From NCBI GenBank assembly GCA_021792135.1, contig JAJYVF010000002.1, positions 1 through 64,000 on the forward strand: DNA of 64,000 nt, read 5' to 3'. Both the position numbers and the translations under genes were made by a program. This stretch comes from Acidobacteriota bacterium (GTDB lineage Bacteria; Acidobacteriota; Terriglobia; Terriglobales; Acidobacteriaceae). The notes under the pieces are model-generated. The model did no database searches and was not told the origin of the DNA. It was given only the letters and a program-made list of their open reading frames with translations. Positions within the stretch are counted from its first letter, which is position 1. Every line of letters begins with the position of its first letter. Positions 3,980-9,327 of this stretch are shown piece after piece.

Positions 3980-5122
3980 ATGCAAAAAGGCAGCCTGGTA
4001 CGGAGGACACGTCAAAACACCGCGGACGTCTGGGAGTTCAGATGGCGGGAACCGGGACCAGACGGGGTTCGGCGCCACCGCCGACTTGTCGTAGGGTCTG
4101 CAGTCGAGGTCGGAGACGAATCGGCCGCTCGTATGGCCGTCGCCGCCCTTCAACTCGAAATCAACATCGATGACGTTCGATTCAGGCAAAACACCGCAAC
4201 CGTTTCCGAGCTCTTCGAGCATTTCCTGCAACAGGAATTGAGAATGGAGTCTGGCTGGCGTACCTTTTCGACGCGCCACACCTACGAGGGCTACCTCCGA
4301 AAGTGGATCGTGCCGCGTTGGGGCTCAAGGGTTGTCGATAGTCTCAGAGCCGGCGAGATTGAATTATGGCTCCGATCGCTGCCTCTGGCGCGCGCGAGTT
4401 GCGCTAAGATTCGAAACCTCATGAGCGTTCTGTTCAACCACGGAATACGGCACGGAATTTCCAGAACGAATCCGATACGCCTGGTTCGCCAGAGCGCAAA
4501 GCGGAAGAAGGTCCCCTTCGCGTTGCCCGCCGATCAGATACAGCGGCTGGTGGCGGCTCTGCCCTTCAGGGAGAAAACCCTTGTGCTGCTGGCTGCCGGA
4601 ACCGGCCTGCGAATGAGTGAGCTCTTCGCGCTCAAATGGGCAGATGTTCACTTTGACTCGGGTGAGATCGATGTGGTGCGGTCGATTGTCATGCAGGTTG
4701 TCGGCCCCTGCAAGACAGAGGTGTCCCAGAGGCCGATTCCGATGGATCCTCTTTTGGCAGACGCTCTCAGAAGCTGGCAGGCCCAGACACGCTTTCGCGC
4801 ACCCAGCGACTGGGTCTTTGCGAGCGGGCAGACTCGGGGCAGGAAGCCGTATTGGGGACAGCCGCTCATGCGCAGCATCATTCGCCCAGCAGCGATCAAG
4901 CTCGGTATCGACAGCCGGATCGGATGGCACACCTTCCGGCACAGCTATTCAACCTTGCTGCGGATCACCGGAGCGGACATCAAGGTCATGCAGGAACTGC
5001 TTCGCCATGCGTCCAGCAGAATGACACTCGATACTTACACTCACGTGGTGACCGAGGCAAAGCGCAGAGCGCAGAGTGAGGTGGTGAAACTGCTTGTGAG
5101 CCCAGCTCAGGATGCAAGTTGA
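3980..5122 (+). CDS. Site-specific tyrosine recombinase (integrase)
   Basis: 380 residues; the start ATG follows AAGGAGAGAG. It has an N-terminal arm-binding segment (residues ~1-60, basic, with WEFRWREPGPDG), a SAM-like core-binding domain (~70-160, HTYEGYLRKWIVPRWG) and a C-terminal catalytic domain. All catalytic residues are visible: Arg211 (GTGLRMSEL), His317-x-x-Arg320 (WHTFRHSY), His343 (LLRHASS) and the nucleophile Tyr353 (LDTYTHV). The gene reads towards the 3' end of tRNA-Glu 169 bases away, the standard layout of an element integrated in a tRNA gene. Four TTGTGCCCA repeats lie in the gap. The enzyme appears intact, so excision is conceivable. Confidence 0.95.
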   Translation: MQKGSLVRRTRQNTADVWEFRWREPGPDGVRRHRRLVVGSAVEVGDESAARMAVAALQLEINIDDVRFRQNTATVSELFEHFLQQELRMESGWRTFSTRHTYEGYLRKWIVPRWGSRVVDSLRAGEIELWLRSLPLARASCAKIRNLMSVLFNHGIRHGISRTNPIRLVRQSAKRKKVPFALPADQIQRLVAALPFREKTLVLLAAGTGLRMSELFALKWADVHFDSGEIDVVRSIVMQVVGPCKTEVSQRPIPMDPLLADALRSWQAQTRFRAPSDWVFASGQTRGRKPYWGQPLMRSIIRPAAIKLGIDSRIGWHTFRHSYSTLLRITGADIKVMQELLRHASSRMTLDTYTHVVTEAKRRAQSEVVKLLVSPAQDAS

Positions 5123-5140
5123 TCAGTTTGGTGTGCGGGT

Positions 5141-5250
5141 TTGTGCCCATTTGTGCCCATGGGGAAATGACTGAAAAGAAAGGTGAAGATGCTGCCTTGA
5201 TATGTGTGCGGAGCAGGTTGCGGAGCATTTTTGTGCCCATTTGTGCCCAG
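5141..5250 (+). repeat. Four TTGTGCCCA repeats in two tandem pairs (putative integrase arm sites)
   Basis: TTGTGCCCA occurs at 5141, 5151, 5231 and 5241. Each pair has a 10-base period, one helical turn, and the two pairs are 90 bases apart, bracketing a short A-rich segment. They lie between the integrase stop and the tRNA 3' end. Direct 9-10 base repeats at this place are typical arm-type binding sites for the N-terminal domain of tyrosine integrases, or sites for an excisionase. The repeats are seen directly; the binding role is inferred. Confidence 0.65.
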
Positions 5251-5290
5251 ATCAGTCCGGGGCGATTTTCGCTAAGTCTCTGATTTGATT

Positions 5291-5368
5291 TGGCGTCCCC
5301 GACGGGATTTGAACCCGTGTTATCGCCGTGAAAGGGCGGTGTCCTGGGCCGGGCTAGACGACGGGGAC
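5291..5368 (-). tRNA. tRNA-Glu (anticodon UUC), CCA encoded
   Basis: On the minus strand the molecule starts GTCCCCGTCGTCTAG at 5368 and ends CGGGGACGCCA at 5291: a seven-pair acceptor stem GTCCCCG/CGGGGAC, discriminator G and encoded CCA. The anticodon loop CTTTCAC places UUC at 5332-5330, and the T arm contains GGGTTCAAATCCC. The D loop is two bases longer than in the common bacterial form, giving 78 nt. Its 3' end faces the integrase, so the gene is the likely attachment site and its 3' part should be duplicated at the far end of the element. Confidence 0.95.
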
Positions 5369-6745: not shown

Positions 6746-7135
6746 GCTTTGGTACGTATCAGCACTTGCCGGATGCAACGAAGTTTGCCAGCCCCCCCCT
6801 CTATTAAGAGTTACTGTGGTAAGCATATTTGACTCGAAGTCGGGGGCGCTAATCCCGCGCCAGATCGGCGATAAGGCCACTCGCAATTGAAACAATTCCC
6901 ATAAAATAGAATACTTATCCCCCATCCACACGACCGTCTGGTGACCTAAGGTACTAGCATTTCTTTCCGCCAACATCGATTCTGCTCCTACCGATAGCGC
7001 TAAGCACCGGCCAGATGTCCCTGCCGTAGCGTGCGCAGCACGCACGGTACAGGTGTCGTGTGTCGATGGCGTTTCTACAGGAGTGCCTGATGTCCGCAAG
7101 CCCTTTCTCCTCTCTCTGACCGCGCTTTTGGGGTA
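6746..7135. other. Gap between ilvE terminator and the Ig-repeat gene
   Basis: About 390 bases, noticeably more AT-rich at 6890-6960 than its surroundings, with no supported gene. Short frames near 7053-7130 give a hydrophobic peptide (KPFLLSLTALLGY) that could be an older leader, but they stop or run out of frame. The promoter of the following secreted-protein gene should lie here; I could not fit a known riboswitch (cyclic-di-GMP classes were considered). Confidence 0.35.
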
Positions 7136-9327
7136 TTGCATGCATGCTGCGCAAACCATCCTTCGTCTTCCGTTGTGCCTCCTGCCCGGCAGCAAGTTCG
7201 CCGGTTTCGCACGCGGCCTTCACGGCAGACCGCGCTGTTGACGCTGGCGCTCTTTTCCGCGGTCCTGGCACGAGCCTCAACCACCGCGGCCATCACCAGC
7301 CCCACGGCGGGCAGCGTCCTGCCCGGCTCCTCGGCCACATTTACCTGGTCCACCGTCAGCGGCGCCGTAACCTACCAGCTTTGGCTTGGGACCAACGGAC
7401 CAACGGTGTCGGATCGGGTAATCTCGGCGTCTATTCTCAGTCACAGTCCACAGCAGCCTCCATTTCGGTCACCGCTACCGGGCTTCCCACGAATGGAAGC
7501 ACTGTTTATGCCCGCCTCTTTGCCGATGTGAATGGAAACTGGACGGTCAGCGACAAGACGTATAAGGCTGCCTCCGGGGCGCCGGCCCTGAGCGCGCTCT
7601 CCTGCACGGGCTCTTCCTTCACCGGCTCTGCCACTGACACCTGCATCGTCGCCCTCAGCTCCGCCGCTCCCAGCAGCGGTGCTCAGGTCACCCTCGCCAG
7701 CAGCAACACCGCCGTCACCGTGCCGGCCAGCGTTGCCGTCCCCGCCGGCAACACCAGCGCCAGCTTCAGCGCGGCAATCTCAGCCGTCAGCTCGACCCAG
7801 ACCGGAACCCTGACGGCTGCCTCCGGCGGCGTCTCGAAGGCCCTGTCGCTCACCCTCAACGCCGCCACTCCGGCTCTCACCCTCAGCGCAGCCACCTTGT
7901 CCTTTGGCAATGTTTCGCTGAATACCCCGACCACGAAGACCGTCTCCCTGGAGTCGTCCGGAACCGCCTCGCTCACGATCAGCGGTCTGGCTCTCAGCGG
8001 CACCGGCTTCAGTGCTTCGGGTATCGCCACGCCGCTCACCCTGGCGCCCAACCAGACCGCAACCCTTACGGTGCAGTTCGATCCCACCAGTGCGGGGGCG
8101 GCTGCCGGCCAGGTCAGCATCACCACCAACGCCTCTTCTGGCGCTGCCCAGACCATCGCGCTCAGCGGTACCGGAACCTCATCGACACCAACCATCATCA
8201 GCCCTGCCCCAGGCTCCGCCCTGCCCGGTTCGTCGGCCACATTTACCTGGACCACGGTCAGCGGAGTCGCAACCTACCAGCTCTGGCTCGGAACCAATGC
8301 AGTCGGCTCCGGCAATATCGCGGTTTACTCCGCTGCGCCGAGCAGCGCCAGCACCATCTCCATCACGGCCACCGGTTTGCCGACCACTGGCGGCACCGTC
8401 TATGCCCGTCTCTTCACGGACATCAACGGTAACTGGCTCGCCAGCGATTACACCTATACCGCTTCATCAGCAGCCGCCGCGCTGAACGCTCTCGCCTGCG
8501 CCACTACCTCGATCACAGGGGCAGCCAGCGACGTCTGCAGCGTCAGCCTTACCGCTCCGGCTCCCACCGGCGGGTTTTCGGTGAGCCTTGCCAGCAGCTC
8601 CAGCGCTGTGACTGTGCCGGCAAGTCTCGCCGTCGCAGCCGGGGCCACAACAGCCACATTCACGGCAACCGCATCTGCCGTTACCACGGCGCAGGCGGCC
8701 ACCATAAGCGCCAGCGCTTCCGGCATCTCCAAAGCAGTCGCGCTGCAGCTGAATCCCGCAACCGCGGCGCTGACCCTCAGCACCGCCAGCGTCTCTTTCG
8801 GCACGGTGCCGCTCAATACTCCCTCCACACAGTCTGTCACCCTAACCTCATCCGGAACGGCAAACCTCACCATCAGCGCGCTGTCGCTCACCGGGACCGG
8901 TTTCACCATTTCGGGAATCGCTGCACCCCTGACTCTGGCTCCGGGTCAGTCCGCGAGCCTGAACGTGCAGTTCGATCCCACCACGGCGAGCTCGTTTACG
9001 GGAGCACTCACCATTTCCAGCAATGCTTCTTCCGGTGCCTCGCAGACAATCGCCCTCAACGGTACCGGAAACTCCACAACCTACGACGTGAATCTCACTT
9101 GGAATGCACCCACAGATACCAGCGATACGATCGCCGGCTACAACATCTACCGCTCCGCAGCTGGAAGCTCGAGCTACCAGCTGCTGAATTCATCGCCAAA
9201 TGCTTCCACCACTTTCAGTGATTCGAACGTCCAGAGCGTTCAGATCTATACCTACATCGTCACGAGCGTGGACGCTTCGGGTGTTGAGAGCCTTCCCTCC
9301 AACAGCATCGATCTAAGTATTCCCTGA
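7136..9327 (+). pseudogene. Secreted Ig-like repeat protein, interrupted by one frameshift
   Basis: Two frames together give one protein of about 720 residues. The first (TTG 7136, possibly a later GTG) encodes a signal peptide, TALLTLALFSAVLARAS, and the domain start TSPTAGSVLPGSSATFTW up to YQLWLGTN. The second carries on with VGSGNLGVYS to the stop at 9327. The switch sits on an 8-base tandem duplication at 7389-7404. Domains in order: SSATFTW..YARLF module, Ig-like module, choice-of-anchor D-type module (LSFGNVSLNTPTTKTVSL), the same three modules again (from ~8200), and a final fibronectin III domain (YDVNLTWNAP..YTYIVTSVD). Proteins of this build are secreted or surface-attached in Acidobacteriota. 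No catalytic domain is seen. Confidence 0.8.
7389..7404 (+). repeat. 8-base tandem duplication causing the frameshift
   Basis: GGACCAAC occurs twice in immediate succession (7389-7396 and 7397-7404). Removing one copy restores a continuous frame reading YQLWLGTN-GVGSGN, which matches the second internal repeat of the same protein (YQLWLGTN-AVGSGN). Confidence 0.85.

Follow-up and report, generated by a model that had tools for sequence, protein, structure and literature searches.

A survey of prokaryotes reports 206,991 genes with reading-frame transitions among 1,106 genomes (PMC3711429). Short duplications within coding sequence are also described as reversible: passages of PMC4243769 and PMC4022640, citing Waite et al. 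2001 and 2003, present tandem duplications that reversibly switch the capsule genes of pneumococcal serotypes 3, 8, and 37, and a passage of a review presents microhomology-mediated tandem duplications, described as reversible, in the ssp1 gene of a fungus (PMC13207564).

The gene described here shares features with each of these systems. As in frameshift pseudogenes, a member of a gene family is interrupted by small frame-changing mutations while its relatives are intact; the difference is that one lesion here is a clean 8-base tandem duplication and that its ancestral form is kept in the second unit of the same gene. With the capsule genes, as those passages present them, it has in common a short spontaneous tandem duplication in coding sequence that would destroy function, but reversibility is reported there, whereas here there is no sign of reversion and a second lesion is probable. 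In ssp1, a gene of fission yeast, a short coding segment is, in the passage concerned, likewise duplicated between tiny direct repeats (here GG) with loss of the frame, but that case is fungal and is described as reversible. At the protein level, the gene resembles the choice-of-anchor D or ASH (ASPM-SPD-2-Hydin) repeat proteins in having two ASH-like domains above curated cut-offs, although the broken domain is a different one, an Ig-like sandwich. A literature search on this domain family in Acidobacteria gave only general papers among the matches listed.

Genomic setting and organization of the gene

The window, the whole stretch of 64,000 nt that was analyzed, corresponds to bases 1 to 64000 of contig C41 in a 5.1-Mb draft genome (77 contigs) of a soil bacterium of the Acidobacteriaceae, and it contains no N. 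Three named loci were matched by the protein of the gene, the two closest being metagenome-assembled Acidobacteriaceae. The gene is made of two units and a final segment with weak likeness to FN3. In each unit an Ig-like domain (domain A) comes first, then a stretch without assignment, then a domain of ASH/HYDIN type, and the second unit can be used as an internal reference for the first. In frame 2, whose codons start where position mod 3 = 2, the sequence is open between 7091 and 7528 and stops at TGA 7529-7531, while frame 1 is open from 7120 to 9324 with its stop at 9325-9327. The features are as follows.

7080-7092, + strand: family leader, RBS-like GGAG (7080-7083) and start ATG (7090-7092), frame 1, assigned with a matrix of 16 relatives
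7093-7119, + strand: probable first frame lesion, net change from frame 1 to frame 2, C/T-rich, ending at the premature TGA 7117-7119
7196-7276, + strand: segment resembling a signal peptide, with a basic stretch, a hydrophobic core, and an A-R-A end, by eye in the frame 2 translation
7283-7396, + strand: N-terminal portion of Ig-like domain A1, frame 2
7389-7406, + strand: second frame lesion, from frame 2 to frame 1, formed by the tandem duplication of 8 bases (GGACCAAC x 2.25)
7397-7581, + strand: remainder of Ig-like domain A1, frame 1
7529-7531, + strand: stop met by frame 2 past the duplication (open reading frame 7136-7531)
7870-8175, + strand: in repeat unit 1, an ASH/HYDIN-like domain (choice-of-anchor D), frame 1, best stretch for PF22073
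8182-8475, + strand: Ig-like domain A2, intact internal reference copy
8770-9063, + strand: ASH/HYDIN-like domain of repeat unit 2, best stretches for PF22544 and PF15780
9079-9327, + strand: C-terminal fibronectin-type-III-like segment and stop (PF24031, E 0.017, weak and below cut-off)

A GTG in the downstream frame shares bases with the TGA at 7529-7531 (GTGA, window 7527-7534) and could be a translational restart site, though it is probably due to chance.

Pfam PF22544 and PF15780 each matched two stretches of the gene, scoring 67.5 and 63.2 against curated cut-offs of 25.5 and 27, values that assign these domains to the ASH/choice-of-anchor D group. NCBIfam NF012200 also matched two stretches (127.3; curated cut-off, 45). 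Domain A received no Pfam assignment above cut-off in this gene, and it was present in 13 of 100 genomes searched, including the genome under study. The AlphaFold2 model of A2 (mean pLDDT 95.3) was a seven-stranded sandwich, as expected of an Ig-like fold. Searched with Foldseek, the model gave 1,713 PDB matches, none of them with E < 0.001; the 50 listed include many Ig, FN3, and pilus-chaperone folds, with TM scores by query length of up to 0.75 among the matches listed. According to this model and the alignment, the break maps to the loop after the third strand of domain A. A segment like the signal-peptide-like one also lies between the leader and the first domain in relatives' genes. From this segment, recognized by eye, and from the domain types, the protein would be located at the surface; no C-terminal anchor was seen by eye in the translation of the gene.

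Two other observations concern the surroundings and the family. A tyrosine integrase gene (Phage_integrase, E 4.6e-27) adjoins tRNA-Glu(TTC), other strand, 5291-5368 (region 3980-5368), and TTTGTGCCCA is found twice in tandem at 5140-5160 and 5230-5249, between the two genes; these tandems are perhaps integrase arm or attachment sites. At another locus (L076, G000:C63:1-2112), where the contig begins inside the gene, the repeats of a relative are fused to what looks by eye like a glycoside-hydrolase-type domain.

An 8-base tandem duplication coincides with a change of frame

The preliminary description had noted an eight-base tandem duplication, one copy of which has to be removed to recover the frame and the internal repeat match, and this observation holds. 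Positions 7389 to 7406 read GGACCAAC GGACCAAC GG, or 2.25 copies of period 8, with the tandem at 7389-7404. Up to this point the two units form a direct repeat (7272-7395 and 8174-8297, 79% identical) at an offset of 902, while the homologous sequence past the duplication lies at an offset of 894, or 298 codons, a change of exactly 8 bases. When the intact A2 (8182-8475) was used as the query, A1 was recovered in two frames, as 7283-7411 and 7396-7581. Differences between the units, counted before the site by the codon positions of frame 2, were 8/5/14 of 41 each, with an excess in the third position, and after the site, by those of frame 1, 69/53/141 of 256/255/255. The G+C content by codon position also changes frame at the duplication. 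The frame change is real on this sequence, and the internal repeat of the gene shows the single-copy state to be ancestral.

Exact period-8 tandem pairs numbered 13 in 464 kb of the same genome, against a mean of 10.6 expected from five fifth-order Markov simulations; the other 12 were checked solely for an open frame across them. Such a pair is in itself ordinary; chance does not account for its falling together with the frame change and the 8-base change in offset. It is thus its position, together with the frame change, that marks the pair as a mutation. The 18-base run occurs once in its own genome and is missing from all 11 further genus members searched, each species being represented by one genome. 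From its extra GG it would follow that, before the duplication, the unit was bounded by GG on either side, in keeping with slippage over two bases. Slippage driven by a hairpin was discarded, as the DNA fold at the site was no better than that of shuffles (z 0.71), and so was a known RNA element at the site, the sole Rfam match in the window being a tRNA.

A 727-codon open reading frame (7144-9327) spans the duplication in frame 1. It was rejected as a real full-length protein because both the codon statistics and the internal repeat place the coding frame of 7283-7396 in frame 2. That frame 1 is open across about 7121-7396 is unremarkable, this being the case in 2,305 of 5,000 codon shuffles.

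Start codon and a probable lesion near the start

A common leader precedes the gene in many relatives within the genus: GAGGTG, a few bases, and then ATG (GTG in some), with a C/T-rich stretch behind it in one group. With a 51-base matrix derived from 16 relatives' leaders, the window being excluded, ATG 7090 ranked first among 63,949 positions of the + strand with 17.6 bits, the next reaching 11.6. The 16 training leaders scored from -7.7 to 32.5 when left out one at a time (14 at 10.5 or more, two below zero). Over both strands of 464 kb, 17.6 bits were reached at three of 927,900 positions, ATG 7090 itself included; one of the other two was inspected and had no family gene. Most of the score comes from the RBS part and the ATG (11.6 bits, reached at 48 of the 927,900 positions), and the match after the start adds 6.0 bits (reached at 1,248).

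Among 47 family open frames, the best leader match reached at least 10.0 bits in 25, always in frame. Fifteen of these leaders belonged to the training set, for which they had been picked in frame. This leaves an independent count of 10 of 10, in which some near orthologs of training genes are included. A 10-bit leader was absent from the remaining 22 open frames, fragments among them, and no out-of-frame leader of at least 10 bits appeared among the two best matches listed per gene. The form GAGGTG(N)3-8ATG was seen before secreted repeat-protein genes of the genus at L012, L073, L082, L084, L085, L087, L088, and L089, and further at L100, L143, L149-L151, L160, and others. One leader group carries an N-terminal motif like M-x-x-x-V-V-P-P-P-F-G-R, with a run of six or seven C within the first dozen codons in four of six aligned members.

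Read from ATG 7090, frame 1 has nine codons before the TGA at 7117-7119 and is out of frame with the secretion signal. The matching stretch is read through without a stop in six relatives' genes at five loci. As no stop interrupts frame 2 from 7091 on, the place of the displacement must be within 7093-7119. The N-termini of relatives matched frame 2 best, if weakly (E 0.018 vs 0.31 and 0.76 for the other frames). This frame has no ATG before the signal-peptide-like segment, its first standard starts being TTG 7136 and GTG 7175. A second start region at 7158-7175, resembling the start of one relative, was discarded because GTG 7175 scores poorly and 7158 offers no standard start in frame 2. With the start assigned by similarity to the relatives' leader, a second frame lesion within 7093-7119 is probable: ATG 7090 is out of frame, whereas all 10 independent leaders are in frame. 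The duplication, to which the silencing of this Ig-repeat gene had initially been attributed, does displace the frame but is then not the whole cause, as translation from ATG 7090 already ends at the TGA.

Intact and broken relatives

The search for the family gave 303 matches in 112 locus-and-strand groups from 164 loci, many of them overlapping. Frame changes within 250 bases were found in the gene of the window (eight overlapping loci of it), at N in two places (G011, loci L015 and L091; G002, locus L100), and without N in a single fragment from another genus of the family (G067, locus L164). Within the same genus, the other genes at the loci examined kept their frame except where N runs occur. 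At L109, L114, L163, and L032, the internal stops of the matches look like natural gene ends. L100, which has the closest relative for the start and first domain, is in one frame from the leader ATG past the place of the duplication, its N run lying further on. In the same genome, four relatives (L073, L074, L075, and L078, the last cut by a contig end) are free of stops from their leaders, and 19 of 19 matches have no internal stop, two of them being parts of this gene. As expected of a pseudogene, the homologous coding sequence is interrupted relative to these intact relatives.

The fragment from the other genus (G067:C1:442500-446000, in a single-contig genome) contains at least two domain A copy remnants around 1000-1540, in different frames, with neither N nor an exact tandem repeat of period 4 to 30 at the break. 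It looks like an independent decayed remnant, and its being broken without a tandem repeat indicates that decay occurs in these repeat families. Comparison at the DNA level with 60 relatives gave, besides the own genome, only three short matches of 38 to 86 bases. Among the 11 other members of the genus, ilvE-like matches (77 to 90% identity) were found in nine and mscS-like matches (61 to 64% identity) in three, none of them tied to this gene.

A probable young pseudogene and its alternatives

We consider that the gene is probably a recent pseudogene or strain-level null allele with two frame lesions, belonging to an Acidobacteriaceae family of secreted proteins with Ig-like and ASH/HYDIN-like repeats. 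The first lesion would lie within 7093-7119, just past ATG 7090, with translation stopping at 7117-7119, and the second is the duplication at 7389-7404, which probably arose by replication slippage between the two GG that flanked the unit when it was single. Translation initiated at ATG 7090 would give nine codons, and a ribosome using the weaker frame 2 sites (TTG 7136 or GTG 7175) would make a signal peptide and half a domain, ending at 7531. The remaining domains have an open frame but no signal, so that no complete secreted protein would be expected. As the two displacements cancel, the start codon and the C-terminal domains are in the same frame, which is of no use given the intervening stop at 7117. 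Apart from the lesions the reading is open over ~740 codons, so that decay, if any, is young.

The start is where a simpler account would differ. If translation began at TTG 7136 or GTG 7175 in frame 2, the duplication would be the sole lesion and the gene a recent knockout. TTG 7136 could be a real start: frame 2 is open from 7091 and contains the signal-peptide-like segment and the first half of A1, and this codon gives M-H, as several relatives begin. However, its leader score (-13.2) ranked 3,257 of 63,949 and that of GTG 7175 (-33.0) ranked 40,753, against the first rank of 7090, and no well-spaced RBS was seen by eye before either, so that we regard a single lesion as unlikely. Still less probable is that one or both lesions are absent from the DNA of the cell, as errors of sequencing or assembly. 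The genome is a draft in 77 contigs, and two of them (C63 and C77) end inside family genes, which indicates that repeats did trouble the assembly. The duplicated stretch, in contrast, is only 18 bases, far under the usual read length, and has unique flanks; the window is free of N, and both the four relatives from their leaders on and all 19 matches in the same genome are clean. Errors in short-read data do not typically take the form of an 18-base tandem.

The reversible slip-strand switch that had been proposed for the 8-base unit fared worse, and we consider it very improbable. In its favor are a perfect tandem, a unit not divisible by three, a location toward the 5' end of a gene for a secreted repeat protein, and the reversible duplications described for pneumococcal capsule genes in passages of PMC4243769 and PMC4022640. 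Duplications of this kind there and in a fungus make the mechanism possible, but no sign of reversion was seen here. The copies are only 2.25 and the density of period-8 pairs is near chance, whereas a contingency locus would have copies enough for hypermutability and a density above chance; none of the 11 other genus members searched has the run, the only further frame breaks seen in the genus at the loci examined are those at N runs, and the broken fragment of the other genus has no tandem repeat at its break. The lesion near the start, if real, would also mean that one slip does not turn the gene on. A gene out of frame at the duplication and likely near its start is more in keeping with ordinary decay than with a reversible switch. 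A broader version, with the 5' end of the family as a contingency region in which both the C/T-rich stretch behind the start and first-domain duplications slip, the window member being doubly shifted, is slightly more doubtful still. If true, it would be a phase-variation system in Acidobacteriota; a literature search on phase variation or pseudogenes in this phylum yielded no such system among the matches listed, judging by title and start of abstract. As for programmed ribosomal frameshifting, the sequence on each side of the site looks coding in its own frame, and the two could be joined in this way, but by eye there is no slippery heptamer in the required phase, the site has no unusual folding (the DNA fold z-score given above), and aligned relatives encode the domain in one frame, which leaves this reading with a negligible probability.

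Implications

The main value of the finding is corrective. Automated gene prediction could present the 727-codon frame that begins at ATG 7144 as a protein, although its first ~80 residues look out of frame and lack the secretion signal. For the family as a whole, comparison of leaders would offer a simple route to likely starts and to its broken members.
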